From Calditrichota bacterium (GTDB lineage Bacteria; Zhuqueibacterota; Zhuqueibacteria; Zhuqueibacterales; Geothermadaptataceae), in NCBI GenBank assembly GCA_008501765.1, contig QQUE01000007.1, positions 918,186-982,185 of the forward strand: a stretch of DNA of 64,000 nucleotides. The letters are read 5' to 3'. Below, in pieces: positions 969 to 38,934 of the stretch. A program made the position numbers and the translations under genes. How positions within the stretch are numbered: position 1 is the first letter of the stretch; each line of letters opens with the position of its first letter. The notes under the pieces were generated by a model. It saw only the letters and a list, made by a program, of their open reading frames with translations, ran no database searches and was not told the DNA's origin.

Positions 969-1718
969 ATGAATTCGAAAACAAGCATAATCCTGATTTC
1001 ATTTTTTCTATTTTTTACCGCCAACCACATTTCGGCTTCGGAAAAAATCCATCAAACCTATGATCAACTTTTGCAAAAATTCGTCGCCGAAAACCTGGTT
1101 AAATACAATCAATTTCATCGCTCAAAAGAAGATATTTCCACCCTTAAAAAATATATCGTTTCCCTTGAAAAAATTGATCCGGACAAGTTACCGAAAAAGG
1201 ATGCGCTTGCCTATTGGATAAATCTGTATAATGCAGTGACCCTGCAGTTGATTCTCGACAATTATCCTGTCGAAAGTATTAAAGATATCGGTGGATTGCT
1301 ATCAAGTCCGTGGAAGAAAAAACTAGTGACTGTGAATGGTGAGCAACTGACTTTAAATCAGATTGAAAATGAAATAATTCGCCCCAAATTTAAAGACGCG
1401 CGCATACATTTTGCATTAAATTGTGCATCGATTGGCTGCCCGCCATTAGCCGCAAATGCCTACGAGGGAAGGACTCTGGATGAACAACTGGATCGAGCTT
1501 CAAAATTGGCGTTGTCGAACGATGAGTGGGTAAAAATCAGCGATAAAATATATATCAGCAAAATATTCGATTGGTACGGTCAGGATTTTATCGAATATTC
1601 AGGTTCAGTTCGAAAATATATCGCCAATTACAGGCCGGATATGGCGGAGACAATTCTCGATGAAAATAAAGAAATCAAATTTCTGGATTACAACTGGAAA
1701 CTAAATATTTTGCAGTAA
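969..1718 (+). CDS. DUF547 family exported protein
   Basis: This 249-residue protein carries DUF547, a domain of unknown biochemical role found in bacteria and plants. Diagnostic stretches are AYWINLYNAVTLQLI (about residues 84-98), HFALNCASIGCPPL (about 143-156) and a C-terminal region ending FLDYNWKLN. The N-terminus has Lys followed by a hydrophobic core (ILISFFLFFTA), consistent with a signal peptide cleaved after HISA. The ATG at 969 is preferred over an in-frame ATG at 930 because AGGGAG lies at 958-963 directly before it and the signal peptide then starts at residue 1. It is convergent with the next gene. Function cannot be stated beyond a periplasmic or surface location. Confidence 0.85.
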   Translation: MNSKTSIILISFFLFFTANHISASEKIHQTYDQLLQKFVAENLVKYNQFHRSKEDISTLKKYIVSLEKIDPDKLPKKDALAYWINLYNAVTLQLILDNYPVESIKDIGGLLSSPWKKKLVTVNGEQLTLNQIENEIIRPKFKDARIHFALNCASIGCPPLAANAYEGRTLDEQLDRASKLALSNDEWVKISDKIYISKIFDWYGQDFIEYSGSVRKYIANYRPDMAETILDENKEIKFLDYNWKLNILQ

Positions 1719-1783
1719 TGCCACAGCAATTTGACGATTCCTTTTCTTGCCTACATTTTACATGTAAGTATGAATAATTGCAG

Positions 1784-22515: not shown

Positions 22516-23109
22516 CTACATTTCTTTTTCCACATGCCTGGAAAAACAATCCGGGCAAATACCGTGGCTGAACTGTGCATCTGAATGGACAGAAATATAA
22601 TCTTCCAATTGCTGCCAATAATTGCTGTCATTACGTATTTTCTTACAATAGCTACAGATAGGGAGAAGACCCTGTAATTTTTTAACCTGCGCAAACGCCT
22701 TCTCCAGTTCAATTACCCGGTCAGCCAGCGCGTGCCGCAATGAAACCGTGCGTATTCCCACTTTAATACGAGCCAGCAGTACTTCCTTGTCGTACGGCTT
22801 CATTACATAATCATCCGCGCCCGAATTCAACCCTTCTAATAAATTTTCCCGTTTGGATTGTACAGTGAGCAGAATTAAATACACCCCATTGTATTTTTCA
22901 TCTGCGCGCAGTAAACGGCACACTTCGGTACCGTCATGTGCAGGCATCAGCCAATCGAGAATGGCAATTTCAATATCAGCATGTTTTTCAAGGAGTCTGA
23001 GGGCAGCAGCGCCATCCACAGCCTCAATTACATCATAACCATCATTTTGTAAAATAAGTTTCAGAAGCTGCCGCGATGCATTATCATCTTCTGCTATAAG
23101 GATTTTCAT
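22516..23109 (-). CDS. Response regulator with C-terminal Cys4 (zinc-ribbon-like) tail
   Basis: Residues 1-120 are a receiver domain with acidic pocket EDD (7-9), phosphoacceptor Asp52 in ILDWLMPAHDG, Thr82 and Lys104 (VMKPYDKE). A short coiled segment (about 125-146) leads to LLPICSYCKKIRNDSNYW and ICPDCFSRHVEKEM, giving Cys152/Cys155 and Cys185/Cys188. This tail recurs in receiver and sensor proteins of many environmental bacteria, and its biochemical output is not established; a structural zinc is likely. There is no DNA-binding domain and no histidine kinase gene nearby, so its partner lies elsewhere. AAGGA precedes the ATG at 23109. Confidence 0.92.
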   Translation of the reverse strand: MKILIAEDDNASRQLLKLILQNDGYDVIEAVDGAAALRLLEKHADIEIAILDWLMPAHDGTEVCRLLRADEKYNGVYLILLTVQSKRENLLEGLNSGADDYVMKPYDKEVLLARIKVGIRTVSLRHALADRVIELEKAFAQVKKLQGLLPICSYCKKIRNDSNYWQQLEDYISVHSDAQFSHGICPDCFSRHVEKEM

Positions 23110-23175
23110 AAAACGATCCTTTTCAATTCAACCGGAATCAATCAATGATATCAATTAAGAGGAACTATAAAATTC

Positions 23176-24108
23176 CTATCTTCTATTTCGGCTGAATATT
23201 TCCAAAACCACCTCTTTTATTAAATGATGATAATAAAATAATTTATCTTCAAGTGACCAATACGCCGCAGCCCCCTGGGTAAGTCCATTTAAAATGCCAT
23301 TGTACAAGCTCAAAATCCCATCATTTCCCGGATAATAGGTGAGACCCATTCCAACAAAACGGGCATGATGGGCATCACTGCCGCCGGTAATCGCGACTTT
23401 CGTTTTTAGTTTTTGCATCGCTTTAATGGTGTTTAAATTATAACGCACCCCCGAACCCGGCACCGCATTATAACATTCAATGGCATCAAATGGCACCGTT
23501 TGCATCAGTTCACGGCACCCCCATTTTTCATTGAAAATTTTTTCGAGAATGCGTGGGGTGAAAGGGTGATTTGCCACCGCAAAACCGCCGAGCGCGTGAA
23601 TCGCCGCCACCGTGTCCTGTGCGCTCATTCCGGCATCCACTTTCTGGGTCAAAAACAGGCCCCCGATGTGCCCATCGTGGCTTGAAACTTCAATTCCGGG
23701 AACTATCGCAATCGGTAATTGCCGCTCGTGGACCAGCCGCCGTGCCAAAAGAGCGCCGCCAATTTCATCATGATCGGTGATTGCCACTGCATCGAGACCG
23801 GCAGCGACGGCAGCCTCAAGCACAAGCTCGAGATCGTCGCCATCAGACCATGCGGTATGGACGTGCAAATCTGCTGAATTTTGCAGAATGATATTTTTCC
23901 GGCCACCATATCCGGCAAGTTTCATATTTGGCAAAAATTCAAGTTCATATTTTGAAGGCTGCCAGTAATCAAGCTTGTCGATTCGTTCAAAATCGTCTAA
24001 ATAATCGCTTTTATATTCAGTTGTGAACTTTTTTTTATTGAATTCTGCCGGCTGCAAATTATTGCGAAAAGGCGTGGCCAAATCGGAGCGTGAAGGTTTA
24101 TTTTCCAT
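23176..24108 (-). CDS. PHP-domain metal-dependent phosphoesterase (TrpH/YciV-like)
   Basis: The 310-residue protein has a PHP domain after an N-terminal extension of about 70 residues. Metal motifs are ADLHVHTAWSDG, AITDHDEIGG, VPGIEVSSHDG, VANHPF and GGSDAHHARFVG. Relatives such as YciV (RNase AM) act as 5'-3' exonucleases on short RNA or on nucleotide phosphates, while others have no known substrate. The extension holds EFLPNMKLAGYGGRKN just before the domain and no signal peptide. It lies 66 bp downstream, in the minus direction, of a long empty spacer and precedes the response regulator gene on the same strand. Confidence 0.88.
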   Translation of the reverse strand: MENKPSRSDLATPFRNNLQPAEFNKKKFTTEYKSDYLDDFERIDKLDYWQPSKYELEFLPNMKLAGYGGRKNIILQNSADLHVHTAWSDGDDLELVLEAAVAAGLDAVAITDHDEIGGALLARRLVHERQLPIAIVPGIEVSSHDGHIGGLFLTQKVDAGMSAQDTVAAIHALGGFAVANHPFTPRILEKIFNEKWGCRELMQTVPFDAIECYNAVPGSGVRYNLNTIKAMQKLKTKVAITGGSDAHHARFVGMGLTYYPGNDGILSLYNGILNGLTQGAAAYWSLEDKLFYYHHLIKEVVLEIFSRNRR

Positions 24109-24818
24109 ATAATTTTTGAATCGAAATTCAATCCTCGCTACAAGAATTCAGGATTCCCCAAAAATCCGGTTTATCATCAATGGAATCGCATTTTTAAAGA
24201 TCGATTGATTTACCACAAAAAGTAGCCATTCCATCAACATTGCTGAAATTTATTTATTTTGTTCTGCAGTTAAAATCAACATCATAAAATTTCAGACACG
24301 AAAAGTACGGCAGTTTGATTAAACTGTCGATATAGTTAAAATCAACTGGCGACAGTTTAACAAAAACTGTTCCAGTACAAAAAATAGTATGCACGAACTG
24401 AAATTGAGCATAAACACAGCGGAAATCGTTGCAAAGTGATACGAAATTGATAACTCAATTTCAAAATTGCGTTTCAGGCCCGCACGATAGTTATTTTCTT
24501 ATTATTGCAATTGCAGTGCAAAATAGTTTGCCCAATTGTATTTGGTTACTGTATGAAGCACAGCAGTGGAACAAAAAAATAGATCTCAGGTTTTAACTTG
24601 TATTTCGATGTATAAATCAATATAAAAATTCGTTACTATTTCTTGACTAAGTAATCTGTTTTATTTACCTTTTTCAGTTTTTTTATCGCATGGCACATGC
24701 GGACGGCTATAGCATCAGTTTAAAGGGCCACTTAAAATATTACATTAAATCGTTCATTCATATTCTACCTTTTCAGGGTAGGCAAAGAACAGGATTGAGT
24801 TTTTAAAAGGAGTTTCAA
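24109..24818. other. 710-bp non-coding spacer between divergent PHP and ugd genes
   Basis: No reading frame with support was found. The spacer contains an 11-bp perfect inverted repeat (listed separately) and several AT-rich blocks. It must contain the promoters of both divergent genes. TTGACT at 24643-24648 is a possible -35 element for ugd but no good -10 follows at the right distance. Confidence 0.5.
24319..24360. repeat. Inverted repeat (hairpin) upstream of ugd
   Basis: TTAAACTGTCG at 24319-24329 is the exact reverse complement of CGACAGTTTAA at 24350-24360, with a 20-nt loop. Similarity extends outward imperfectly (CAGTTTGA versus CAAAAACTG). It has no T-run, so it is not a plain terminator. 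It could be an operator, an RNA structure or a repeat remnant. Confidence 0.55.
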
Positions 24819-26141
24819 ATGAAAATCGCAGTTGTGGGAACAGGATATGTTGGGTTAGTTGCAGGAACTTGTTTTGCTGATTCGGGAAATGACGTCATCT
24901 GCGTAGACATCGACCCTGAAAAGATAAATAAATTGCTCAAAGGGCAAATTCCAATATTCGAACCCGGGCTTGAAGGACTTGTTCTGCGCAATGTGAAAGA
25001 AGAGCGGCTAAAATTTACCACCGATATTAAATCTGCGGTGGAATCGTCAGAAATAATCTTCATTGCTGTTGGCACGCCGCCAGATGAAGACGGCTCTGCC
25101 GACTTAAAACACGTTTTGGCGGTCGCCCGCGATATTGGTAAATACATGAACACATTTAAAGTGGTCGTCAATAAAAGCACCGTCCCGGTTGGCACGGCGG
25201 ATAAAGTTACGGCAGAGATTAGAAGCCATACAAAGCAAGATTTCAGCGTTGTTTCCAATCCGGAATTTCTCAAAGAAGGCGCTGCAATCGACGATTTCAT
25301 GCGGCCCGACCGTGTGGTGATCGGCACGTCCAACCCCAAAGCGGCAGAAATGATGAAACGCCTGTACGCGCCGTTCGTGCGCTCTGGAAATCCCATTCAC
25401 ATAATGGATGAGCGCAGCGCTGAATTGACAAAATACACTGCAAATTCGATGCTGGCCACGAAAATATCCTTTATCAACGAAATTGCCAATCTGTGTGATA
25501 AAGTCGGTGCAAATATTGAACATGTGCGCCAGGGAATTGCCAGCGACAGCCGCATTGGGCATCATTTTATCTATCCCGGTACCGGTTACGGTGGCTCCTG
25601 TTTTCCGAAAGATGTGCAAGCGCTTATTCGAACCGCGCGTGAATATGGCGTCGATACCCAAATAATCCAGTCTGTGGAAGATGTCAATTACCGCCAAAAA
25701 ACAGTTTTGTTCGACAGAATTATGGCTTACTTCAACGGCGATCTGGCCGGAAAAACCATCGCGATCTGGGGCCTGGCATTTAAACCACGCACCGACGATA
25801 TGCGTGAGGCACCAGCGATCAGCATGATTAATGCGCTGACAAAAGAAGGTGCAAAAATCCAGGCCCACGATCCCGAGGCATTGCATGAGGCCCAACGTAT
25901 TTTTGGTGAACGGATCGAAAAAGACATCACACTTTTCGAAAAAAGATACGATGCTTTGGAAAACGCAGACGCGTTGCTGATCATGACTGAATGGAATGCT
26001 TTCCGGGAGCCGGATTTTAATTTGATCAAAGAATCGCTCAATCAACCGGCCGTTTTCGATGGCAGAAATTTATACGAACCTGCACGGATGAACGAGTTAA
26101 ATATTGACTATTTTTCAATCGGGCGTCCAAAGGCCAATTAA
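24819..26141 (+). CDS. UDP-glucose/UDP-GlcNAc 6-dehydrogenase family protein
   Basis: The 440-residue enzyme oxidises the C6 hydroxyl of a UDP-sugar to a carboxylate using two NAD+. The N-terminal Rossmann motif is MKIAVVGTGYVGLVAG with Asp30-32 for NAD ribose; the central region has SNPEFLKEGAAIDDF and TKYTANSMLATKISFINEI; the catalytic Cys261 is in TGYGGSCFPKD; and the UDP-binding C-terminal domain holds WGLAFKPRTDDMREAP. AAAGGAG precedes the ATG. Sequence alone does not separate UDP-glucose from UDP-GlcNAc activity. It could feed UDP-GlcNAcA to the diacetamido-uronate genes at 32-36 kb, which lack their own dehydrogenase. A terminator follows directly. Confidence 0.95.
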   Translation: MKIAVVGTGYVGLVAGTCFADSGNDVICVDIDPEKINKLLKGQIPIFEPGLEGLVLRNVKEERLKFTTDIKSAVESSEIIFIAVGTPPDEDGSADLKHVLAVARDIGKYMNTFKVVVNKSTVPVGTADKVTAEIRSHTKQDFSVVSNPEFLKEGAAIDDFMRPDRVVIGTSNPKAAEMMKRLYAPFVRSGNPIHIMDERSAELTKYTANSMLATKISFINEIANLCDKVGANIEHVRQGIASDSRIGHHFIYPGTGYGGSCFPKDVQALIRTAREYGVDTQIIQSVEDVNYRQKTVLFDRIMAYFNGDLAGKTIAIWGLAFKPRTDDMREAPAISMINALTKEGAKIQAHDPEALHEAQRIFGERIEKDITLFEKRYDALENADALLIMTEWNAFREPDFNLIKESLNQPAVFDGRNLYEPARMNELNIDYFSIGRPKAN

Positions 26142-26154
26142 TTTTATACATGTT

Positions 26155-26186
26155 AGAGCCACGCTCTGCAATCGTGGCTCTTTCTT
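26155..26186 (+). terminator. Rho-independent terminator of the UDP-sugar dehydrogenase gene
   Basis: A 9-bp perfect stem, AGAGCCACG at 26155-26163 with CGTGGCTCT at 26173-26181, encloses a 9-nt loop and is followed by TTCTTCT. It begins 13 bp after the stop codon at 26141. The U-tract is interrupted but the stem is GC-rich and well placed. Confidence 0.8.
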
Positions 26187-26427
26187 CTGAAATTCCAATC
26201 AATTACGTGCCGCAGAATACCAGGACAAAAAGGGAACCAGACCTATCTACGCAATTTCCATTCAATGCACAGCGTCGTCCCAACATAGATTTCCAATTCT
26301 GTTTAAACATAATTAGAATGCACATGTCTCTGAATCGGAGCACTCTATTTGTGTTCCATCAAATGTTTCGTACAATAGACTATTCCAATTATAAACCTCA
26401 GCGTTATTTCAAACAAGGATTCGTTGT

Positions 26428-28779
26428 ATGTCACTGAAAAAGGCCCAGTTGTTAATTTTTACGTCTTCACTTTTTTTCTCCCTAGCTTACGCGCAATATC
26501 CACAAAATTTGGACGTAAAAACAATTATGCAGGATCCGGATTCCTGGCTGGGCTCATTGCCAAAAAAGCCCTATTGGTCAGAAGACAGTAAAACCATTTA
26601 TTTTAAATGGAATCCGGAGAATGCCGATTCTGATTCACTTTATGCAATTTCGATCCGAGGTGGGATAGCAAAAAAAGTAACCGCCAAAGAACAGGCGCTT
26701 TTACCGGGCCGGAACGGGCATTTTTCAGATGACCAAAAATATAAAGTCTTCTCAAAAAATGGTGATATTTTCATTTTCAATTTGAAGAGGAACAAACTCG
26801 AACGAATCACCCGTTCTTTGGCAAATGAAAGCAATCCACGCTTCTCAATGGATCAGAAACGTGTAATCTTTCAGCGGGACAATGGACTGTTTTCCTGGAA
26901 CCGCCAGACCGGCAAAATTGCACAATTATTCGATATTAAATCTGCAGATAGCCCCACGGAAGATGTACCCCCGGTAGATCCACAGGAAAATTTCATCCAA
27001 TCCGAAGAACGTGAGCTCATGCAGGTACTGCGACAGCGGAAAGAACAAGAACGGCGCCGGAAAGAAAAGAAAAATGCAAACACAGCCATTCCAACTTTTT
27101 ATGTCGGTAATTTTCGTATTAATAATATCCAGCTTTCCCCTGATGAAAAATTCATCACATTAAATTTATCGCAGGAAAAAAGCCCTGGAAAAAATACGAA
27201 AATTCCAAATTACATCACGGAAAGCGGTTACACACAATCTGACGACAGACGGACAAAAGTCGGCTCAAAACAACGTGATTTCAAGTTGGCCTGCATCGAT
27301 ATTAAAAAGGATACACTTATTTTCGTTGCCAGTGACAGTTTACCGGGCATTCAAGATTTCCCCAAATTTTCATCACAGAATAAGAAAGAGGGCGATAACC
27401 GTACTGTCAACATTTGGGGACCATTTTGGAGCCACAAAACCAATCAGGCTTTTGTGGAAGTACGCTCACACGACAACAAAAGCCGCTGGCTGGCGTTGTT
27501 AAATCCGCAAACCGGAGAGCTGCAAAGCTTCGAGCACCAGCACGACGAAGCGTGGATCGGCGGCCCCGGCATTTCGTGGTGGAATGGCTCAGGTACGCAC
27601 GGCTGGCTGCCTGATGATAGCGGCATCTGGTTTTGCAGCGAGGAAAGTGGCTTCAGCCATCTTTATATTTACGATTTTAAAAAGGGCGAAAAAAAACAAC
27701 TCACAGCCGGGCAATATGAAATCTATAGCCCCCATCTTTCTCGCAATAAAAAATACTGGTATTTTAGTTCAAATGAAGAGCATCCGGGGGAACGCCATTT
27801 TTATCGCATGAATCTGGATGGCTCCAAAAAAGTGAAACTCACTTCCCTGCCCGGCCGCAATGACGGCTCCGTTTCACCGGATGGCAAACAGCTTCTCATT
27901 CGCAGATCATTCAGCAATCAGCCCTGGGAATTATATCTGCAGGAAGCAAAATCGGGCGGTAAAATACGAAGGTTGACTGAGTCCACCACCGAAAAATGGC
28001 AGCAGTACAACTGGCATGTGCCACAAATTGTTCGCATCCCGGCTAAAGACGGCAACCGGCCCTACGCCCGGCTCTATAAGCCACAAAATCCGAACGGCGC
28101 TGCCGTCCTTTTTGTCCACGGCGCTGGCTGGCTGCAAAATGCGCACAAATGGTGGTCGAGTTATTTCCGCGAGTACATGTTTCACAATCTGCTATTGGAA
28201 CGCGGCTACACTGTGCTGGATATCGATTTCCGCGGCAGCGCAGGCTACGGCCGCGATTGGCGTACGGCTATTTATCGCAGCATGGGCGACAAAGATCTCG
28301 AGGATTATGTCGATGGTGCCAAATGGCTGGTGGAAAAACACGGTATCGATGCGCGGCGAATCGGAATTTATGGCGGTTCCTACGGTGGATTTATCACACT
28401 CATGGCGCAATTTACCAAACCCGGTGTTTTTAAAAGCGGCGCTGCCCTGCGCCCCGTTACCGACTGGGCGCACTACAACCACGGTTATACTTCCAATATT
28501 TTAAATATCCCGCAGGCGGATACAACAGCATACCGCAGCAGCAGCCCCATTTATTTTGCTGAAGGATTGCAGGACAATCTGCTCATCTGCGTCGGTATGC
28601 TCGATCCCAATGTGCATTTTCAGGATGTCGTGCGCCTGTCGCAGCGGCTCATTGAGCTGGAAAAAGAAAACTGGGAAGTGGCGTTTTACCCCATGGAAGG
28701 GCACGGTTTCAAAGAAGCCAGTTCATGGACTGACGAATACCGCCGGATTTTCAAGTTGTTTGAGCAGACGTTGAAATAA
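26428..28779 (+). CDS. Exported S9-family (prolyl oligopeptidase/DPP-IV-like) serine peptidase
   Basis: The 783-residue protein has a signal peptide (MSLKKAQLLIFTSSLFF, cleavage after LAYA). Residues about 25-530 form a WD40/TolB-like beta-propeller with repeats such as PRFSMDQKRVIFQRD and PDGKQLLIRRSF. The C-terminal alpha/beta hydrolase domain has the nucleophile Ser651 in GIYGGSYGGF, Asp726 in GMLDPNVHF and His759 in EGHGFKEA. It would cut dipeptides or short peptides in the periplasm or outside the cell. A lysine/arginine-rich segment around residues 205-225 (RQRKEQERRRKEKK) is an unusual charged insertion in the propeller. AAGGA lies about 10 nt before the ATG. Confidence 0.93.
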   Translation: MSLKKAQLLIFTSSLFFSLAYAQYPQNLDVKTIMQDPDSWLGSLPKKPYWSEDSKTIYFKWNPENADSDSLYAISIRGGIAKKVTAKEQALLPGRNGHFSDDQKYKVFSKNGDIFIFNLKRNKLERITRSLANESNPRFSMDQKRVIFQRDNGLFSWNRQTGKIAQLFDIKSADSPTEDVPPVDPQENFIQSEERELMQVLRQRKEQERRRKEKKNANTAIPTFYVGNFRINNIQLSPDEKFITLNLSQEKSPGKNTKIPNYITESGYTQSDDRRTKVGSKQRDFKLACIDIKKDTLIFVASDSLPGIQDFPKFSSQNKKEGDNRTVNIWGPFWSHKTNQAFVEVRSHDNKSRWLALLNPQTGELQSFEHQHDEAWIGGPGISWWNGSGTHGWLPDDSGIWFCSEESGFSHLYIYDFKKGEKKQLTAGQYEIYSPHLSRNKKYWYFSSNEEHPGERHFYRMNLDGSKKVKLTSLPGRNDGSVSPDGKQLLIRRSFSNQPWELYLQEAKSGGKIRRLTESTTEKWQQYNWHVPQIVRIPAKDGNRPYARLYKPQNPNGAAVLFVHGAGWLQNAHKWWSSYFREYMFHNLLLERGYTVLDIDFRGSAGYGRDWRTAIYRSMGDKDLEDYVDGAKWLVEKHGIDARRIGIYGGSYGGFITLMAQFTKPGVFKSGAALRPVTDWAHYNHGYTSNILNIPQADTTAYRSSSPIYFAEGLQDNLLICVGMLDPNVHFQDVVRLSQRLIELEKENWEVAFYPMEGHGFKEASSWTDEYRRIFKLFEQTLK

Positions 28780-28852
28780 GGTTTTGCTTGTATAAATAGA
28801 AGTAGTCGGGGATTTTCGGACATTGCTTTAAGTGATCGATAGTATTAATTTA

Positions 28853-29120
28853 TTGATTGTGCCTTTAGCTCCGCGGTTTTTTTCTTAAACGGCCTTCGAA
28901 AAATGGCGTTAAGAACTTTTTGAGAATTTCCGTTAAGAATCATTTATTGTTTGAGCGCAGCGAGTTTAAAATGATTTAGGAAATTCTCAAAAAGTTTAGC
29001 CGATTTTTCGTCAGCCTTGATTTTTTTGTTTCTTTTTTGATCAAGCAAAAAAGAAAATGCACAACACATTAAAAAATTTTGCAATTAGATTAAGTACACC
29101 GGAGCTAAGGTCACAATCAA
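28853..29120. mobile_element. 268-bp inverted-repeat element (MITE-like), no coding capacity
   Basis: The ends, 28853-28873 and 29100-29120, are inverted repeats that match at 19 of 21 positions (TTGATTGTG...TTAGCTCCG). Inside is a perfect 18-bp inverted repeat, AACTTTTTGAGAATTTCC at 28914-28931 with its complement at 28979-28996. The match continues outward imperfectly through CGAAAAAT. The region has no coding frame. It sits between the S9 peptidase and an IS3 remnant, which suggests a non-autonomous element or the end of a larger one. Confidence 0.6.
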
Positions 29121-29153
29121 TTAATTTATTCATCATAAACCAGGAGCCTATCG

Positions 29154-29647
29154 ATGCGAAAACAACGCCGAAATCCCTCACCGTCCTTCAAAGCTAAAGT
29201 AGCCCATGCCGCTTTAAAATGTAACAAGACATTATCTGACCTATCAGCCAACTAAAGACGCCACGCCAATCAAATCACACTATGGAAGATGCAACTCACA
29301 ACCGAAACAGCTGACTTATTTCAGCACGGCGCAGGCAAATCCACTTCAGATGCTGAAAAAGACAAGCTGCACTTCAACTTACCTATGAATGGCAGCCGTC
29401 GTCTTCGTGATGAACTCAAAGATGACGGGTTCTTCGTTGGTCGTGATTATGTTCGTCATTTAATGCGCGAAATGGGTATAAAAGCAATTTATCCACGTGT
29501 TCGAACCACGCATCCAGGCAAAGGACACAAAATTTATCCATAACTTTTACGGGGCTTGACCATTGACAGGCCCAATCAGGTTTGGGCAGAAAAACTCCGG
29601 ATCAGGTGTATTTCGAATACTGCCGGGCACGATTGGAAGCGGCTTAA
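29154..29647 (+). pseudogene. IS3-family transposase remnant (orfA and orfB pieces, internal deletions)
   Basis: From ATG 29154 the frame reads MRKQRRNPSPSFKAKVAHAA, the typical orfA N-terminus, then an in-frame TAA at 29253, then NQITLWKMQL and GAGKST from the orfA helix region. After KDKLH it jumps to orfB: NGSRRLRDELKDDGFFVGRD, VRHLMREMGIKAIYP, GHKIYP, another TAA at 29541-29543, and LLRGLTIDRPNQVWAE. In a shifted frame the orfB C-terminus follows at once, KTPDQVYFEYCRARLEAA with TAA at 29645-29647. The DDE catalytic core is absent and total length is about 0.5 kb against about 1.2 kb for an intact copy, so this copy is inactive. Confidence 0.9.
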
Positions 29648-29809
29648 CAAAAAAGATTCAATTAGATATTATGTGTATTTTTCTTCTCTTGTGTTGTTTT
29701 AATATATCCAATGGTGTTGTTTGCCAACACAAATGAATGAAAAAAAGCAATTGAACAAATCGGAAAGATCACTTATAAAACATGAAAAACAGTCCTACAA
29801 ACCCACCAT

Positions 29810-30351
29810 CTTGCATTGGCAACTGGATTGCTTTTTGTCCGGTTTTCACGTCCCGCTGCTGAAATTCTGGTTCGTGAAAACGCGCTCATTTCACCATACA
29901 AAGAAATTACGGGTTTGGTGTTCCCCACAACAAACGCACGGCGTAACCAGCTGTTGACTTATCTGCACGGCTCACTTTAAGTCGTACCGAAAAGGATGAA
30001 ACTGGGGAGTCAAAACGCAAATTCCACCCGTCAGGACTCGAACATGATCAGGTCGCCGTTTTCCCGCTCACCAGAACAATCGTGCACCCGATCGATGAAA
30101 ACAGCCCGTTTAACAGCACAAATGAAAAACTGCTCGCGGACTCTAATGCGGAAATACTCATTCTCCTTTCTGCATTTGATGAAACATTCTCAGCCACTGT
30201 GCACACGCGCACATCATATAAATACAACGAGATCGTTTGGGGGAAGAAATTTGACTTCACCAGGCAAGTGGCAACTGAACCGATGTTTTTGCACGGTTTT
30301 TTTCGAAAAGTGCGCAATTTTTTATGCATTTATGGTTGGTGCAGGTATTAA
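29810..30351 (+). pseudogene. Frameshifted inward-rectifier K+ channel (KirBac-type) pseudogene, N-terminus lost
   Basis: Two frames together give the second half of a bacterial Kir channel. Frame one (29810-29977) reads the end of the inner helix and the first cytoplasmic strands: LALATGLLFVRFSRPAAEIL, VRENALISPYKEITGLVF, NARRNQLL. Frame two (about 29950-30351) continues with ARLTLSRTEKDETGES, TRTIVHPIDENSPFN, LSAFDETFSATVHTRTSY and YNEIVWGKKF. These are characteristic Kir cytoplasmic-domain motifs. The pore and first membrane helix are missing, although ATG 29782 reading MKNSPTNPPS may be a relic of the N-terminus. The end runs out of similarity after about 30265. It lies next to the IS3 remnant, which may have caused the decay. 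Confidence 0.85.
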
Positions 30352-30426
30352 TAGAGTAAGAAAATCCACAGAATCTTAAAAGGATTCTCATTGCCGGGAA
30401 GCTATTAACATTGCACGGATAGCAAA

Positions 30427-31683
30427 ATGAAAAAGATTTTAATTTTAGGTACCGCATCGCTCGTTCTCCTCATTTTTGCGACATTTACAGCAAATGCTCA
30501 GATAGAAAAAGGAAGTTGGGGCGGCGGACTAAACCTTGGCGCACAAAAGGGCTTCGGCCCACAAAGCTATCCCATGGGGATCGGTTTTGAGGCGCTATTA
30601 TCGTATAAACTTTCTCGCAACTTAACACTAACGGGTGTCGGTGGCTACCGGCCAATTCGGGAAAAATTATCAGACAATAATATCAGTTCTACCAAACTGG
30701 CTTTCAGTGATTTGTTAGTGGAATATGACATAGCTAAATTAAGCAACATGACACCATTTCTTGCAGCGGGTGGTGGTTTGTATAGTGTTGGTTTCATCAC
30801 CGCTAATGCAGATCGACTTCAGCTCGCCGCAGAAGGTGCCTTTGGTTTTGGCATTCGGAGTTTTATCGGTCCACAAATGGCCTTTAAACTTGCTGTTATG
30901 AATAAAATAACCGCCGACGGGATTCGTGAAGATAAACAAAAATCGTATCTAACCTCAACACTTGGGCTGACGTATTATTTTAATAACAAAACAGCTTTGG
31001 ATGATGAAAATCTCTTCACGAACGAAGATATCGAAGATCTTCCAATTGAGGGCGATCTTGCAGCAACGCCGTCACAACTGGTTGAATATTCTCGTAATTT
31101 GGATAGCAACGAAGATTTTCAGGCTTTGCTGAATTCCGAAAATCCGCCTGAAGAAATCCAGGAATACAAAAAGCTGCAAGAGCGCGTTAACAAGTTAATT
31201 GAACTAATTTCCCAGAAGGACATGGAGATTTCTGACCTGAAGCATTCTATATTAGGTGAGGATGCAACATCCAGCGATTATGCAAACTATGACAGCGACT
31301 CCAATGCACAAGTCGAATTTACTTACGCTTATGAGGATGGTCTGTATAAATTTTATAGCCGCCGCTACGATGACGCCATAGAGGTATTTTCATCTTTAAT
31401 TCAAAATTACCCGAACCACTACCTAATTGGCAATTGCAATTATTGGCTCGGTGAAGCCTATTTTTCGATTGGTGACTTTTCACAATCGATTATGTCACTT
31501 GATCAGGTTCTGGCCGATGCAGGTGCAATTAAACGTGACGATGCGTTGTATATGATGGGACGTTCGTACAAAGAGTTAGGGCAATTAGATAAAGCCCGTG
31601 AAGCCTTTGGCCGTGTAATCAATGAATATCCAAAAAGTGAATTTGTCAGTAAATCCCTCGAAGTGCTCAGTAATTTAAGATAA
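30427..31683 (+). CDS. Outer-membrane beta-barrel fused to a CpoB/YbgF-like TPR domain
   Basis: The 418-residue protein has a clear signal peptide (cleavage after TANA, about residue 24). Residues about 27-190 look like a small outer-membrane barrel: alternating hydrophobic strands such as WGGGLNLGAQ, LTLTGVGGYRP and FLAAGGGLYSVGF, with an aromatic-rich last strand LTSTLGLTYYF. A linker with acidic residues and a short coiled coil (about 245-275, QEYKKLQERVNKLIELI) leads to at least two TPR units (about 300-418), including YNYxWLGEAYFSIGDF-like NYWLGEAYFSIGDFSQSI and DALYMMGRSYKELGQLDKA. The TPR part resembles the C-terminus of CpoB/YbgF, which works with the Tol-Pal system. A tol operon is not in view. 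A terminator follows. Confidence 0.75.
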   Translation: MKKILILGTASLVLLIFATFTANAQIEKGSWGGGLNLGAQKGFGPQSYPMGIGFEALLSYKLSRNLTLTGVGGYRPIREKLSDNNISSTKLAFSDLLVEYDIAKLSNMTPFLAAGGGLYSVGFITANADRLQLAAEGAFGFGIRSFIGPQMAFKLAVMNKITADGIREDKQKSYLTSTLGLTYYFNNKTALDDENLFTNEDIEDLPIEGDLAATPSQLVEYSRNLDSNEDFQALLNSENPPEEIQEYKKLQERVNKLIELISQKDMEISDLKHSILGEDATSSDYANYDSDSNAQVEFTYAYEDGLYKFYSRRYDDAIEVFSSLIQNYPNHYLIGNCNYWLGEAYFSIGDFSQSIMSLDQVLADAGAIKRDDALYMMGRSYKELGQLDKAREAFGRVINEYPKSEFVSKSLEVLSNLR

Positions 31684-31716
31684 TTTACTCGCTTCGTTTT
31701 CGTTGCTCCGGTAGCA

Positions 31717-31747
31717 GGCTATGATATTCAGGATCATGGCCTTTTTT
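31717..31747 (+). terminator. Rho-independent terminator of the barrel-TPR gene
   Basis: A 9-bp stem (GGCTATGAT at 31717-31725 with ATCATGGCC at 31733-31741, one G-U pair) with a 7-nt loop is followed by six T residues at 31742-31747. It starts 34 bp after the stop codon. Confidence 0.8.
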
Positions 31748-32182
31748 CTACAAGATTTTCTCCTTTTCATTTCCCCATTTAACCTGCTTTATTCACAAAT
31801 ATTTTTTAAATTATTCTTAACCTTTTGATAATTAGATATTTGAGATAAGACGATGAGAAACTAAGTTATCTATTAAAATTAGCTCTCACACAGCCACGGA
31901 GTTCACAAAATTATGATTTTATAAGTATTTAAATATTTTTTTGTGGATTTAGTGCCCTTGTGTGCGAATTATTCAGGTTAACATTCTCACCTTCAAAATC
32001 TACAATTTGTAAACATCCCTATCACATAAAATTTAGGGTTAGACGGTAATTTTCGATCCAAGGGAATAAAATATCTGAATTCGATGGATCAATGGCGTTG
32101 ATTGCAGGGTATGAATTTGATACGATGGTGGGAATCCCGCACCAAAAAAGCAAAAAATGATGATGCGGGACAGAATTAATTA
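31748..32182. other. Non-coding spacer between convergent genes
   Basis: This 435-bp AT-rich region lies between the barrel-TPR gene and the 3' end of the polysaccharide locus. A 7-bp inverted repeat (TCCCGCA near 32132 with TGCGGGA near 32164, long AT-rich loop) lies just beyond the last polysaccharide gene and might end its transcript, but it has no clear U-tract. I see no gene. Confidence 0.45.
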
Positions 32183-33292
32183 TTAGATTTTTACAGCCAA
32201 TTTCACAGCATCAGCGACGCGCTGAATTTGCTCTTCAGTTAATTCCGGGAAGAGTGGCAGGCTTATTATGCACTTTGCGGATCGTTCTGCTTCCGGAAAC
32301 TGACCACGTGCGATATTCATATTTGAATATGCTGGTTGTAAATGCAATGGAACCGGGTAATGAATTCCGGCGCCAATCCCTTTCTCATTTAACTCGGCAA
32401 GAACGCGATCACGATTTGGCACTTCGATCACATAAAGATGATAAACGGCTTCAACATCTTCCCGCTCACCAGGGATGATGACTTCCGGCGTATCGGAAAA
32501 AAATTCATTATAGCGTTTGGCATGCGCTCGACGTTTCTCTGTCCAGTGATCAAGATGGCGCAATTTCGTGTTCAAAATAGCCGCTTGCAATGCATCACAG
32601 CGGTGGTTGTACCCTTCGATGCTATGCTCATATTTTGTCAGCCGACCATGATTTCGCAGCCTGACGGCATTTTCAGCAAATTTAGCATCATTTGTAACGA
32701 TTGCCCCGGCATCGCCAAAGGCGCCAAGGTTTTTTCCGGGATAAAAACTAAAGCAGGCAGCTTTTCCCAGGCTACCAATTCTCTTTCCTTTATAACGGGC
32801 GCCATGCGCTTGCGCGGCATCTTCTACCACAAAAAGATCATGCTGCCGGGCAATTTGATTAATGGCGTCCATTTCTGCCGGATGACCGAAAATATGAACT
32901 GGTAAAATGGCTTTCGTTTTTTCTGTGATGGCATTTTCCAGCGCCTGAATATCCATCGTTCGCGTAAACGGATCAATATCAACAAAGCGAATGGTTGCGC
33001 CGGTGTGGGAGATTGCCTCAGAGGTGGCGATGAATGTATTGACAACCGTGATTACTTCATCCCCGGGGCCAATTCCCAAGCCTTTTAATGCCAGAAACAG
33101 AGCATCTGTCCCGTTTGAAACGGCAATACAATGCTCAGCTTCACAATATTCAGCAAAGGACTTTTCAAAATCCTGCAAATACTTGCCACCAATAAAAGCT
33201 GTATTTTCAATTACTTCAGCGACTATACCATCAATTTCTTCACGGATCGAAGCATACTGCGCTTTTAAATCTACTAAAGGTATTTTTTTCAT
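32183..33292 (-). CDS. DegT/DnrJ/EryC1/StrS-family sugar aminotransferase (WbpE-like)
   Basis: The 369-residue PLP enzyme transfers an amino group to a keto-sugar nucleotide. The N-terminus MKKIPLVDLKAQYASI and TAFIGGKYLQDFE are typical of the WbpE/FdtB/ArnB group. AVSNGTDALFLALKGLGIG binds the phosphate, VEDAAQAHGARYKG holds the PLP-pyridine Asp, and SFYPGKNLGAFGDAG carries the lysine that forms the internal aldimine. ATG 33292 is chosen since AGGG lies 7 nt upstream; further starts overlap that site. With the neighbouring dehydrogenase and acetyltransferase it fits the 3-amination step in UDP-2,3-diacetamido-2,3-dideoxy-glucuronate synthesis. It is the last gene of the minus-strand polysaccharide locus. 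Confidence 0.9.
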   Translation of the reverse strand: MKKIPLVDLKAQYASIREEIDGIVAEVIENTAFIGGKYLQDFEKSFAEYCEAEHCIAVSNGTDALFLALKGLGIGPGDEVITVVNTFIATSEAISHTGATIRFVDIDPFTRTMDIQALENAITEKTKAILPVHIFGHPAEMDAINQIARQHDLFVVEDAAQAHGARYKGKRIGSLGKAACFSFYPGKNLGAFGDAGAIVTNDAKFAENAVRLRNHGRLTKYEHSIEGYNHRCDALQAAILNTKLRHLDHWTEKRRAHAKRYNEFFSDTPEVIIPGEREDVEAVYHLYVIEVPNRDRVLAELNEKGIGAGIHYPVPLHLQPAYSNMNIARGQFPEAERSAKCIISLPLFPELTEEQIQRVADAVKLAVKI

Positions 33293-33380: not shown

Positions 33381-34343
33381 TCAGATAAACAAAGCGATAC
33401 CCAGCAATCCGAACGCAACTGTAACCGAATAAAGCAACATCACGGCTTGCGGTTCTGTTACACGAATTACTGAAGCGACGTAAAATTTTAAAGAGACATA
33501 TTTCATTGTCGGAGGCGATTCAATCGTCCCATCATTGCGTACTTTTCCAAATTTAACCAACGGTACTCTTCGCAATTTGAGTGTCCAAAAATCCAAAATA
33601 TAATTTATTGTGTGGGGCAAAACGATGATAAATCCAAAGAGCTCCATGCGGTTCATCACCAGATAAGTACCCAGGGCACCCCCAAGAAAATAGGTCCCGA
33701 TATTACCCAGTAAAATTCGTGCAGGAAATTTATTGAACCACATAAATGCAATCAACGCCGGAACCATTGGCGCTAAAATTACTAAATTCCCCAAACCACC
33801 CGCGATGTATGAATGAACACCGACGAAAATAAAAAGCAGGGTGCTCAAGCCGCCGGACAGCCCGTTGTAGCCAGCGTGCACATTAATTAAATTGGCGACG
33901 ACCATAATATAAAATGGCACGAATAACCACCGATAAAAGGTACCCAGTTCCAGGTCCGTAAAAATGAGGCCAAGTGATGTTCCTTCGGCGAGAGAAGATG
34001 CAGGCAAAGCAAGTACAAATAAGATAAATACTTTATCGTATCGCATTTTAAAGCCCATCAGATCGTCGGCTAAACCATAAAGGCCAAACACAAATGCGAC
34101 GAAATAGTATTGCAATAGTTTTCCAACATCTGGTGCGCTAAATTGCGCAATGGTCAGAGCGATAAGTGTCGCCGCCATAATCGCCAGCCCACCCATGGTC
34201 GGAATTTCCGGGCGATTTGGTTTATACATGTCCTTTACAACATATCCGGCTTGAAATGCTTTTTTTATGAGCAATTTGGTGAGGCCAATACCCAATACAA
34301 ACGAAAGTATTGAGATAAAAAGGATATCTCCTGTCAGATTCAT
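33381..34343 (-). CDS. Polyprenyl-phosphate GlcNAc-1-phosphate transferase, archaeal/eukaryal-like GPT type
   Basis: The 320-residue protein has about ten membrane segments and belongs to the MraY/WecA/DPAGT1 superfamily, which starts glycan assembly by moving a sugar phosphate to a polyprenyl phosphate. Visible motifs are VKDMYKPNRPEIPTMGGLAI after the first helix, YGLADDLMGFKMRYDK with the catalytic Asp pair, INVHAGYNGLSGGLS, LLGNIGTYFLGGALG, and PHTINYILDF. The AGxNGL form and the DMxKPxRP-x-GG start look more like archaeal AglH and eukaryal GPT than bacterial WecA. ATG 34343 is chosen because AAGGA lies 7 nt upstream. No WcaJ/WbaP-type initiating transferase was seen, so this is the likely initiating enzyme of the locus. 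Confidence 0.85.
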   Translation of the reverse strand: MNLTGDILFISILSFVLGIGLTKLLIKKAFQAGYVVKDMYKPNRPEIPTMGGLAIMAATLIALTIAQFSAPDVGKLLQYYFVAFVFGLYGLADDLMGFKMRYDKVFILFVLALPASSLAEGTSLGLIFTDLELGTFYRWLFVPFYIMVVANLINVHAGYNGLSGGLSTLLFIFVGVHSYIAGGLGNLVILAPMVPALIAFMWFNKFPARILLGNIGTYFLGGALGTYLVMNRMELFGFIIVLPHTINYILDFWTLKLRRVPLVKFGKVRNDGTIESPPTMKYVSLKFYVASVIRVTEPQAVMLLYSVTVAFGLLGIALFI

Positions 34344-34422
34344 GATGCAGTCCTTGTTGCAGTGCACGTACGTAGTAGATCCCAGCAAGAAATCACCCCA
34401 AATTCATACTTGCTGATGTCAA

Positions 34423-35094
34423 TTAATATACAAGTTCCAAAGTGTCTTTATAGCGCAATTGGCTTCGTAATTTTATTTTTTGAGCAGGATTGCCAACGAC
34501 CACAGCGTCTGGTTCGACATCGTGTTTTACAACACTGCCGGCGCCGATTAAACATCCTGCACCCAACTCCACACCGGGTAAAATTGTCGCGTTTGCCCCG
34601 ATGATTACATTTTCATTTATAACAGGGCCTTGCAGACGATTTTTTACATCTTTTCCCAGTGGAAAATCTGCATTTGTCAGCACTACATTTGGCCCAAGCC
34701 AGGCCCCTTTTTTTATTATAGTAAATTCAGGAATGAACGCCTGTGAATGAATTCGAACATCATCTTCAATTACAACCTGGTGCTCGACCACGGTTTTTGA
34801 GCCTATTGAAACATTATTTCCAATTGTGCAAAGTTCGCGAATTTGCACTCCGTGCCCGGTTTGAAAATGTGCCCCGATAGTCGTCCCGGCATAAATCACC
34901 GTGTGACTGCGAATATAACAATCATCCCCAATTTTTAATTTGAGATCAGGATCCGCATTTTTTGGAGGAATCCCAAGCAAACAATAGGGCTCCACAAATT
35001 GATTCTCCTGAATTGTCAGAGAATTCCCAATGTGGATTAACCCGTTCTTTTGCAATTTATTCTCTTCATCAAACGGGTGTGGCATGTTATGCAT
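34423..35094 (-). CDS. Left-handed beta-helix (hexapeptide) acyltransferase, WbpD-like
   Basis: The 223-residue protein consists mainly of hexapeptide repeats, for example IGDDCYIRSHTVIYAGTTIG, IGNNVSIGSKTVVEHQVVI and VIIGANATILPGVELGAGCL, ending in the standard PDAVVVGNPAQKIK. Such enzymes form trimers and acetylate amino sugars with acetyl-CoA. Position next to a Gfo/Idh dehydrogenase and a WbpE-like aminotransferase points to the 3-N-acetyl step of UDP-diacetamido-uronate synthesis. ATG 35094 overlaps the upstream stop codon by 8 bases (ATGCATAA) and has GGAG 9 nt before it, indicating translational coupling. Starts at 35109 and 35127 would extend further into the preceding gene. Confidence 0.85.
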   Translation of the reverse strand: MHNMPHPFDEENKLQKNGLIHIGNSLTIQENQFVEPYCLLGIPPKNADPDLKLKIGDDCYIRSHTVIYAGTTIGAHFQTGHGVQIRELCTIGNNVSIGSKTVVEHQVVIEDDVRIHSQAFIPEFTIIKKGAWLGPNVVLTNADFPLGKDVKNRLQGPVINENVIIGANATILPGVELGAGCLIGAGSVVKHDVEPDAVVVGNPAQKIKLRSQLRYKDTLELVY

Positions 35095-36178
35095 AAGATG
35101 AAACTCCATTGCTCTGCCGCGTTCCATTTGTCGGAGTCAATTCGGATCCATTTTTCTTGCCGTTTTCCTGAGATGGAGTCCCGATTTTTTTGCCATTTTT
35201 TTGAACCGAGTCGATGGGCATGACATCCAAATCCCGCTTTATTTCGGCTGATAATAATGCCAGTTCACAAACGCGGCTGGTAAAGTATTCCTCTTTCCCA
35301 ATATTGACCATTTTGGTGTACTCACCATTGAGTTCATGGGAGACGATGGTTAAGAAATGGTTCAATTCGTCGCGTAATGGTTCTGATTTTTCAATTTCAA
35401 TGGAGTAGGGCTCATCTTTATTCACCCCGTCATACGATACAGAAATTGGATATACCTGAATGGTCTGTTCCTGGAAATCACAGGCAATTTTCAGATTTTC
35501 TGCGACAATCCAGATATCGCGTGCCTTTTCCGGATGACAACTGCTAACCTCAAGACTGGCATAAAAACGGTCGTAATCAAGCATGATCATCGCTGATTCT
35601 TCAAGTCCATTACCGAAGAGATCCATGGTTTTACAATAGACCCGCTCCGGTCGTTTATCCAAGATAAAATTTAAAATATCAATGAGATGAACACCCAAAT
35701 TTACCACGGCGCCCGAATCACGACGTGGTGGGTTGGTCGAATGAACGTATCGTGTGGTGATATATTGCAATTGCCCGGCGTCAGCCAGGAGTTCTTTCAA
35801 TTTGATGACCGCTGGATTAAAACGGTATAAATAGCCAACTGAAAAAACACATTTTTGCTGCTCTGCCAATTCAACCAGTTCATTGGTCTTTTGAGCACGT
35901 AACGTCACTGGTTTTTCAACAAGTACATGTTTTTTCGCGATGAGGCATTCTTTGACAACATCGTAGTGTTTATCGGTGGGCACAGCCACAGTAACTGCGT
36001 CCACAAACGGCAGCATGTCATAAAAATCCTGGAAATAGAGGATGTTGTTTTCCTTAGCCAATTCCTCAGTATTTGGATTGATATCAGCAATTCCAACAAG
36101 TTCACAATCTAATTTTGAGAGAGTACGGATGTGGTTTTTGCCCCACCTGCCTGCACCTATTACACCTACTTTTACCAT
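35087..36178 (-). CDS. Gfo/Idh/MocA-family sugar-nucleotide dehydrogenase (WbpB/WlbA-like)
   Basis: The 363-residue oxidoreductase has an N-terminal Rossmann fold (KVGVIGAGRWGKNHIRTL), the AVPTDKHYD region, and the family signature VLVEKPVTL. SVGYLYRFNPAVIKLKELL and VNLGVHLIDILNFILD are typical of the WlbA/WbpB group that oxidises C3 of UDP-N-acetylglucuronate. After about residue 320 there is a low-complexity, Asn/Gly/Lys-rich tail (SQENGKKNGSELTPTNGTRQ) absent from most relatives. The stop codon is overlapped by the next gene, so the two are probably made together. A 507-bp spacer upstream may hold an internal promoter. Confidence 0.88.
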   Translation of the reverse strand: MVKVGVIGAGRWGKNHIRTLSKLDCELVGIADINPNTEELAKENNILYFQDFYDMLPFVDAVTVAVPTDKHYDVVKECLIAKKHVLVEKPVTLRAQKTNELVELAEQQKCVFSVGYLYRFNPAVIKLKELLADAGQLQYITTRYVHSTNPPRRDSGAVVNLGVHLIDILNFILDKRPERVYCKTMDLFGNGLEESAMIMLDYDRFYASLEVSSCHPEKARDIWIVAENLKIACDFQEQTIQVYPISVSYDGVNKDEPYSIEIEKSEPLRDELNHFLTIVSHELNGEYTKMVNIGKEEYFTSRVCELALLSAEIKRDLDVMPIDSVQKNGKKIGTPSQENGKKNGSELTPTNGTRQSNGVSSYA

Positions 36179-36685
36179 TTTCTATTCTTCTCCTTGCTAT
36201 TATTTATATCCTGAAAAAAAACGTTGGTGATGGGATATAATTAATTTTAGCGTAAAATAAATGCGTTGAATTATTCAAACAGGAAAATGAATGGAGGAAA
36301 AGTGAGCAGTCCTGCTAAAGATTGCCATGAAGGGAGGTTAGAAAAGATGAGAAAATCAAAGGGTGCGATAATTCCAAAGCAAATTTCAAACTGGCACCAA
36401 CAACATCATCTATCCCGGGGCTTCGTTCCCGCCAATATCAGCGAAAAAACAAAAAATTCCCTTTCTCCATTCTCGAGCCCGTTTTACTTACCAGTCGATA
36501 AAAACGTCATGTTCCTACAACTGTTTTGAGATCAACTACATACAGTTTGAATTTAAAAATACTGATATAAGTTAGTTACATTGGCAAGTTTATGCGGAGA
36601 AAAAAGTAGAGAAAAAGAGAGAATTAATAAAGCGATTGAAATAACGTTTATTCAGATTAATATCATACAAATTCGCATAATAATT
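36179..36685. other. Spacer inside the polysaccharide locus
   Basis: This 507-bp gap splits the minus-strand locus. No coding frame is convincing: a plus-strand frame at 36266-36529 has poor composition and no recognisable domain. A local promoter for the diacetamido-uronate gene set is plausible, but I cannot place one. Confidence 0.4.
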
Positions 36686-37780
36686 TTATAGAAAATTATC
36701 TTGATAGGCTGGGTTTTCTCTCATTATGCGATGGCTCTGTGGGTAGTTTTCGAAAAACCAAACCATGAATGCAGTGACGTCAATTTTTTCAGAAAGCATT
36801 CTATTCCGGCGGGCTTTATATTCCTGTTGCAAGTTTTCTGAATTCACCAAATCTTCAATTTTTTTAAACAACTGGTTAGGATATTGTGTTTGAATCCCGA
36901 ATGTGAGTCCATAATCATGCTCAAGTTCATCGAGATAACCCAACTTACCCACAAAATCATTATATCTCAAAGAAGGTGTCCCAAGGACCGCAGCTTCAGC
37001 GGCCATTGTCTGGCTATCGCCAATGTACATTTCGGCATAAAACAACGCATGATGCACATCATCTGGATTGATTTTGATTCGATATTTTTCAAATTGAGAT
37101 TCCAGCTCTCTTTCGGAAGTGATGTAAATATTGCCTTTTGGCTCCAGAATGTTGATTATTTTCTGTGCAATCTCTGTAGTTATTCCACTTTTGCCGGTGT
37201 CGTGATGCGCAGTTAATTTGGCAAATCTCAAGAGAAAAAATGACTCATCCAAGTTGACATACTTCTTGATCCGTTCCTGATCAGGTAGAAATTGATTAGG
37301 ATGCAAATAAGCTAATTCGTGATACCCCGAATAATGCACCGTTTTATCCTCCCATTTCCCAGTTCTGCAAGGATTTGGTGCCAAAATACAACTTGCCAGC
37401 GGATACCCCATTTTGGCAAACAAGGGAACAGCATCAAAATCATCTTCATTGACATTGATTGCTGGAATTTTTAATAACTTGCCAATGTGCGTGATTTCGG
37501 TCGATGTTCCCACCATAATATCCGGACGGTTTTTAAAACACGCTTTAAGAATTCCGCAATCTCGATGCAGTAGACCAAGGGCAATGGATAATTTATCATC
37601 CTTCCGCCCTGCTGGTTGGATATTGAGATAATTAAAACCTGACTCTTTAACCAGCTCTTCTAAAATATCTTTCTTTTTAATAAGCAGATAAATTGAATGC
37701 CCATTAGTTTTTAGTTGAGACAAAACATTTTTAAAAAGATGGTAGTGGGCGGGATGCCCTAAATAGAATAAAACTTTCAT
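36686..37780 (-). CDS. DUF354 family glycosyltransferase-like protein
   Basis: The 364-residue protein matches DUF354, a GT-B-like family found in polysaccharide clusters and archaea. Family stretches are VLFYLGHPAHYHLFKNVL at the N-terminus, RPDIMVGTSTEITHIGKLL, NVNEDDFDAVPLF, and the C-terminal sugar-nucleotide-like site MYIGDSQTMAAEAAVLGTPS. Its exact reaction is not established; transfer of a sugar from a nucleotide donor is likely. The start ATG overlaps the preceding gene's stop by 4 bases (ATGA). With the next two genes upstream it forms a tight three-gene block. Confidence 0.85.
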   Translation of the reverse strand: MKVLFYLGHPAHYHLFKNVLSQLKTNGHSIYLLIKKKDILEELVKESGFNYLNIQPAGRKDDKLSIALGLLHRDCGILKACFKNRPDIMVGTSTEITHIGKLLKIPAINVNEDDFDAVPLFAKMGYPLASCILAPNPCRTGKWEDKTVHYSGYHELAYLHPNQFLPDQERIKKYVNLDESFFLLRFAKLTAHHDTGKSGITTEIAQKIINILEPKGNIYITSERELESQFEKYRIKINPDDVHHALFYAEMYIGDSQTMAAEAAVLGTPSLRYNDFVGKLGYLDELEHDYGLTFGIQTQYPNQLFKKIEDLVNSENLQQEYKARRNRMLSEKIDVTAFMVWFFENYPQSHRIMRENPAYQDNFL

Positions 37781-38934
37781 CGGAGGTCGCTATTCTTAAA
37801 TAATAAATAGGATAATGCGGCAAACATCCATGCATTAGACCAGCGCATAAAGGAGATTTTGCTGGTGAAATATTTATACTTGCGGAAATAGAAATGTCCG
37901 TCCTTGGCCTGCATGTTGGAAACCATCCAATTAGCAACGTTTTCTGCTATCTTTAACTTGCCAAAACGCACCAAAGTCAAAATAGATTGTGCGGCTGAAG
38001 TGCAGTCAACGGGATATTTTTTTTGATCATAAAATTTAGGAATTTTCTCATGTTCGAAAAAATTGTCACAGTAAAATTGAAATCCCAATTCCAAGTTATT
38101 ACGATGCGTTTCATCACCGGTCAACTTGACAAATGTTTCAAGGCAATCAAGAATGTATCCCGTATGATAATTATCTACCCAATCACGATTATCATTGTGT
38201 GAATAAACCCACGCACCTGTTCGGTTTTGATGTTTCATCACAAATTGCACTGTGAGAGCGGCTTCATTCAACAAAGAACTATCACTATTAATTGAATACA
38301 CCTGCGAAAGCAGCCTTGCCCCTTTCATTGTGGCATTGAAAACGATTTGTTTGTCAAGCGGTGAGTAGGAATAACAAAATAAATCGCCTTCATAAACCTT
38401 ATTTAAATCCTTGCGGATAAAATCTACTGCGCTGATGCACAAATCCAAAGCATGTCGATTTTGAGTTAATTCATAAGCTATAAATAGGCTATTTGTAATA
38501 ATCCCTGTCGCAACGACTGTCGGTGTGAAGGCCGGGATTGAAGCATAACGTGCTTCCCAGTCAAAATCGTACCCCCAACAAGCGCCGCTAAATCCTTTGG
38601 ATTGCAGCCGGATTAATTCGTCCAGCAGAATTTCTATCCGTTCTAAATAGATTTCATTTTTCTCTGGAAATACCTGCGACAGATAAGCAAAACCCTGTAG
38701 ACACAATCCAAGGGTTACCGGGTTATAGCCCTTGGGGATTCCAAGCAAAGGACGCAAATTTAACAACGATCGCTTGGTAATTTGTTGAACGAGAAATCTT
38801 AATTTTTTATTATTTAAAGCAGGAAGTTTAAATAACGGCGACTCCAAGCCGTCATAGCGATCGTATCCCCGATACTTATTAGCTAAAATATAGTTTTCAA
38901 GGCGGAGAGTGTTAGGTGCCAAAGTTGGAGGCAT
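37777..38934 (-). CDS. (alpha/alpha)6-barrel protein of polysaccharide clusters
   Basis: The 385-residue soluble protein has no single clear catalytic motif. Its repeating helical pattern, with elements such as NPVTLGLCLQGFAYLSQVF, GTGxxxNSLFIAYELT-like ATGIITNSLFIAYELTQN, HTGYILDCLETFVKLTGD and CTSAAQSILTLVRFGKLK, resembles six-hairpin (alpha/alpha)6 toroids of glycoside hydrolases, lyases and epimerases. SNAWMFAALSYLLF near the end is typical of this group in capsule loci. It may act on the polymer or on a lipid-linked intermediate. The start lies 1 bp after the bi-domain oxidoreductase stop and its own stop overlaps the DUF354 start by 4 bp. Confidence 0.65.
   Translation of the reverse strand: MPPTLAPNTLRLENYILANKYRGYDRYDGLESPLFKLPALNNKKLRFLVQQITKRSLLNLRPLLGIPKGYNPVTLGLCLQGFAYLSQVFPEKNEIYLERIEILLDELIRLQSKGFSGACWGYDFDWEARYASIPAFTPTVVATGIITNSLFIAYELTQNRHALDLCISAVDFIRKDLNKVYEGDLFCYSYSPLDKQIVFNATMKGARLLSQVYSINSDSSLLNEAALTVQFVMKHQNRTGAWVYSHNDNRDWVDNYHTGYILDCLETFVKLTGDETHRNNLELGFQFYCDNFFEHEKIPKFYDQKKYPVDCTSAAQSILTLVRFGKLKIAENVANWMVSNMQAKDGHFYFRKYKYFTSKISFMRWSNAWMFAALSYLLFKNSDLR

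Follow-up and report, generated by a model that had tools for sequence, protein, structure and literature searches.

A probable dead 3' half of a KirBac-type potassium channel gene among mobile-element debris in a Calditrichota genome

The window analysed here, the whole stretch of 64,000 nucleotides, comes from a genome of 5.9 Mb in 21 contigs with a completeness of 98.92%. The gene remains that concern us lie in a gap between two protein-coding genes, which they share with two mobile elements, and a further repeat lies just beyond (positions are those of the window):

26428–28779, plus strand: left neighbour, an S9 dipeptidyl-peptidase-like gene (Peptidase_S9 and DPPIV_N; 74% identity to the sister genome G001)
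28854–29120, no strand: MITE of 267 bp with terminal inverted repeats and dispersed matches in its own genome
29154–29647, plus strand: apparent relic of an IS3-type element (HTH_21 and a three-frame reading beside L077 of the sister genome)
29810–29950, plus strand: kir relic, piece 1 (frame 2), covering the last part of TM2 and the beginning of the cytoplasmic domain
29953–30255, plus strand: kir relic, piece 2, IRK_C segment, frame 1, with a faint tail to about 30300
30427–31683, plus strand: right neighbour, an intact TPR-containing protein (TPR families)
31775–31981, no strand: second dispersed repeat, to the right of the TPR gene and about 207 bp long, with matches in its own genome

The kir relic was read from a three-frame translation of 29700–30450, in which the codons of frame 1 start at 29701 + 3k and those of frame 2 at 29702 + 3k. 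Frame 1 reads HPIDENSPF and FDETFSATVHTRTSY, and frame 2 reads LALATGLLFVRFSRPAAEILVRENALISPYKEITGLVFPTTNARRNQ. Piece 2 matches the Pfam family IRK_C (PF17655) with 57.8 bits (cut-off 22.5, E = 1.4e-15) over profile positions 75–135 of 174 and KirBac3.1 residues 206–271 with E = 1.5e-11, and has no match among NCBIfam models at E ≤ 0.001. Piece 1, for which no Pfam family was found at E ≤ 1, matches KirBac1.1 residues 141–185 with E = 1.1e-4. Among the Kir proteins from the same class (L002–L007), the best match of both pieces is the intact L004: in a local search piece 1 shows 60% identity over 48 aa (residues 145–192) and piece 2 shows 55% over 83 aa (residues 208–290), and when L004 was searched against the whole genome piece 1 showed 57% identity to residues 143–193 (E = 1.6e-11) and piece 2 aligned with residues 195–293. 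The two pieces align one after the other with a single intact channel and so belong to one gene that changes frame near 29950. The features of the Kir gene lineage present here are the IRK_C domain and a Kir-type end of TM2 running into the cytoplasmic domain. The similarity of piece 2 to Kir proteins is far above chance and that of piece 1 is good, and on these comparisons 29810–30255 of the plus strand is confirmed as what would be the C-terminal half of a bacterial inward-rectifier K+ channel, in two frames. The first-pass annotation had described a Kir cytoplasmic domain in two frames, HPIDENSPF included, from 29810 onwards, and both the translation and the protein-level searches against IRK_C and the KirBac channels bear this out. 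Its estimate of about 130 residues was slightly low, the two pieces together making about 148, and clear homology stops at about 30255 (WGKKF), a faint extension to about 30300 being seen in one of three comparisons (L007).

Compared with intact homologues, the relic is truncated and its frame is disrupted, the frameshift in the assembly lying near 29950. For L004 residues 1–142, which hold the N-terminus, TM1, the pore loop and the selectivity filter (T-x-G-Y/F-G in intact relatives), no convincing match was found at the relic locus. A single open reading frame of about 300 aa, as in functional Kir, is absent, and the ORFs that begin with usual start codons in the Kir frames have 54 aa (29816–29980) and 89 aa (30082–30351); the first-pass expectation that a standard gene caller would give short fragments and nothing more is plausible. 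They are overlapped in other frames by longer ORFs of 127 aa (29996–30379, plus strand), 93 aa (30048–30329, minus strand) and 78 aa (29721–29957, plus strand); in a Pfam scan at E ≤ 1 nothing matched the 127-aa and 93-aa ORFs, and the 78-aa ORF gave a single hit, under its cut-off. The 127-aa ORF, the longest between the S9 peptidase and TPR genes, runs in a frame without the Kir match of that stretch. Within the retained part 4 of the 21 near-invariant columns are changed, against a median of one among 42 homologues (none in 11, one in 19, two in 4, three in 7 and five in 1), a comparison that leans towards relaxed constraint and is weak as a test, since homologues with three or five changes exist.

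No intact kir was found elsewhere in the genome, whether by the IRK_C profile, which gave a single place in the 5.9 Mb at E ≤ 0.001 (E = 3.9e-15), or with full-length L004 as query. The latter returned three weak pore-region matches in the rest of the genome (L004 residues 71–160, 26–34% identity, E = 3.6e-7 to 0.0025). The frames that hold them are open over 289, 455 and 354 aa, and we read the matches as other K+ channels; the first 142 or so Kir residues joined to an IRK_C domain were not found elsewhere in the genome. The relic thus appears to be a pseudogene fragment, as the truncation, the broken frame and the missing 5' half all indicate and as had been claimed at first pass, and it would make no channel and most likely no product.

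That insertion-sequence debris lies nearby, another early claim, is also supported, a truncated, apparently IS3-type transposase relic and the MITE both lying upstream. The former, which we take from reading to be an IS3-type element with recognisable OrfA and OrfB ends, has a match to HTH_21 (39.8 bits on 29289–29540). Its parts follow in the order of an OrfA start with a stop, the HTH part of OrfB and an OrfB-like C-terminal end in another frame, and the interval expected to hold the catalytic domain is almost entirely gone; no DDE part was recognised by reading, the profile scan covering a small part of the relic. About 160 bases of unrecognised origin separate it from the kir relic. An insertion of the element exactly into kir is unsupported, as none of the tests of its ends was significant: inverted repeats as good arose in 521 of 1000 shuffles, left-end similarity to the IS of the sister genome as good in 351 of 1000, and a right-end alignment as good in 215 of 2000. 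The element L077 of the sister genome (contig C81) is similar and likewise decayed, and adjoins what by eye is an apparent broken integrase-like frame.

The MITE is bordered by a 9-bp target duplication, TTAATTTAT, at 28845–28853 and 29121–29129. Twenty copies were examined, the window copy and its 19 next-best matches (L041–L059), and the duplication is perfect in 11, has one mismatch in 7, two in one and four in one, so that 18 of the 20 have at most one mismatch. The terminal inverted repeats are about 20 bp long and the duplications are AT-rich. Copies of 266–269 bp (8), 287 bp (6), 307 bp (4) and 327 bp (2) occur because three fixed internal sites either carry or lack a G+C-rich module of about 20 bp, which one of the sites holds in reverse orientation. 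The module contains GGCGAAGC. Its 11-base core was not seen in the window, nor beyond the element spans of L041–L059 (62,689 bases in total). In a search of 40 genomes the MITE was present in its own genome and in two of the same genus, G002 (7 matches) and G001 (two short matches), and was not found in the other 37 among the candidates scored (18 of them in many genomes). The second repeat, with 37 of 126 candidates scored, has at least 40 further matches in the genome at 82–93% identity, certain of these being fragments of the same copy, and on contigs C3 and C15 copies of it lie beside or inside MITE pieces. Over 28500–32200 no RNA family was found at E ≤ 0.1.

The S9 peptidase gene is the right edge of a block whose synteny is conserved in the genus, and G001 keeps this block to the left of the relic, with four proteins of 22516–28779 at 72–90% identity. 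What follows the peptidase gene differs, being a KaiC-like gene in G001 and other frames in G002 to G006, the contigs of G002 and G006 being short in this comparison. Eight stretches (L060–L067) represent the locus in six genus and family relatives; compared with them as DNA, 28760–32200 gave a single match, within the TPR gene, and the Kir proteins L004, L005 and L007 searched against them gave nothing at E ≤ 0.01. Synteny is therefore broken on the left of the relic. The TPR protein matches a YbgF-type model under its cut-off, and its best-scoring match in the relatives has 37% identity. Parts of 33556–38874 match other contigs of G002 at 70–75% DNA identity, and the block right of the relic is therefore not private to this genome. 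These parts fall within a minus-strand run of ORFs (32183–56065), which include a DegT-type aminotransferase, a glycosyl transferase of family 4 and oxidoreductases among those scanned and perhaps form a surface-polysaccharide cluster.

Within the phylum IRK_C was found in 7 of 82 genomes, namely five of family f7, one of family f9 and the relic, f7 and f9 being two other families of the same class. It was not found in any of the 14 other genomes of the order (2 of the genus, 4 more of the family and 8 more of the order), 10 of which are at least 90% complete. The same-class Kir genes of the other families have long frames of 307–349 aa with the selectivity filter, whereas the relic is short and broken; one of them, L002, has a stop within the matched stretch.

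Farther afield, the named Kir matches, three confirmed among 108 stretches, are in two Flavobacteriales MAGs (62% and 53% identity) and a Sporocytophaga MAG (51%). In the phylum of the 62% match 64 of 395 sampled genomes have IRK_C, and the best-scoring 30 of these, besides L069, were included in a tree of 43 rows and 147 columns. The relic is unplaced in this tree among Bacteroidota and same-class sequences, no well-supported set of up to half of the rows including it, and no donor can be named from it. Kir was not found on phages (50,697 records, E ≤ 1e-5) and was found in nine plasmid records, seven of Synechocystis and two of Caballeronia, at 32–38% identity to L004. The tree included three of the nine, none of which belongs to the supported group containing the relic, so a plasmid source is not indicated. 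Among the 64 genomes a single IRK_C match lies in a short frame (genome G302, 1412–2358, minus strand, L141). Here a full-length kir is spread over two overlapping frames, in segments of 194 and 132 aa, which makes it either another pseudogene or the result of a sequencing error; a stand-alone domain in the 132-aa frame was rejected, as the other part of kir adjoins it in another frame. Broken or misread copies of kir are thus not unique to the window.

We propose that 29810–30255 is very probably the dead 3' half of a KirBac-type gene lying among mobile debris in an unstable gap. The gene would have lost everything that codes for the N-terminus, TM1, the pore loop and most of TM2; what is left is frameshifted near 29950 and would have faded where it encodes the end of the cytoplasmic domain. 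The gap, lying right of the conserved block of which the S9 peptidase gene is the last member, would also have received the IS3-type element and the MITE, and insertion-sequence activity or a rearrangement may have removed the 5' half of kir. A complete, working kir gene need never have stood at this locus.

As to how the gene came here, we incline, with moderate confidence, to the view that kir was acquired horizontally after the genus had formed and then decayed. As no IRK_C was found in the relatives of the genus, family and order and no Kir match at their locus, acquisition is at least as likely as loss, and the first-pass account of a KirBac channel formerly present in the lineage and later lost is unsupported. 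Two observations speak against acquisition. The G+C content by codon position is 0.51/0.39/0.50 in piece 2 and 0.51/0.39/0.51 in the neighbouring peptidase gene, so nothing marks the relic as foreign, and the relic is unplaced in the tree.

The same host-like composition would suit vertical loss, in which the ancestor of the class had kir, most families lost it and its last remains persist here, and the long kir frames in two families of the same class (five genomes of f7 and one of f9) point in that direction as well. We regard this history as possible, yet doubtful: a single gain suffices to explain the lack of a match in the 14 order relatives under acquisition, whereas vertical loss requires several independent losses, no Kir match was seen at the locus in the genus and family relatives, and the tree gives no supported grouping of the relic with the same-class sequences, though such a grouping is compatible with it.

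It is highly improbable that the gene is in fact intact and was broken by an error of sequencing or assembly. According to one report (PMC11017572), many of the pseudogenes described in bacteria may be real genes, and an error could account for the frameshift near 29950. It could not account for the missing 5' half, whose place is occupied by the transposase relic and other non-Kir sequence, and no long homopolymer lies immediately around the shift; as the 5' half was not found, correcting the frameshift could not restore a channel, and the refuting condition named at first pass, an erroneous frameshift with an intact gene upstream, fails.

Equally hard to credit is that the 89-aa frame, with its GTG at 30082, encodes a small protein that is still made, a detached fragment of the Kir cytoplasmic domain put to new use: the frame is open over 30082–30351 and 17 of the 21 near-invariant columns are kept over both pieces, but Kir function needs the pore, piece 2 covers profile positions 75–135 of 174 only with the start of the domain in the other frame, and the short IRK_C frame of G302 is part of a full-length split kir and no stand-alone domain.

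The dead 3' half of kir thus shares the end of TM2 and the cytoplasmic IRK_C sequence with KirBac3.1 and KirBac1.1 (PDB 1xl4 and 1p7b) and differs from them in lacking the N-terminus, TM1, the pore loop and the selectivity filter and in being frameshifted, so that it could not form a channel. Literature searches, judged by titles, gave no relevant publication on KirBac pseudogenes and, on KirBac phylogeny across bacterial genomes, only work on other channels; a search on horizontal transfer of prokaryotic inward rectifiers gave none. Pseudogenes are everyday features of prokaryotic genomes and are often explained by failed horizontal transfer (PMC522871). The kir relic resembles the cases described there in being isolated, broken, without a match in near relatives and beside mobile debris, and unlike them it points to no donor or direction.

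Gene remains of this kind are common in bacteria, so the find, though genuine, is an unremarkable one and leaves the understanding of Kir biology as it was. A six-frame profile search recovers remains that annotation may miss, and the relic adds one more data point to the patchy spread of Kir among bacteria, where IRK_C was found in 64 of 395 genomes sampled from the phylum of a Flavobacteriales MAG and in 7 of 82 from the phylum of the window.
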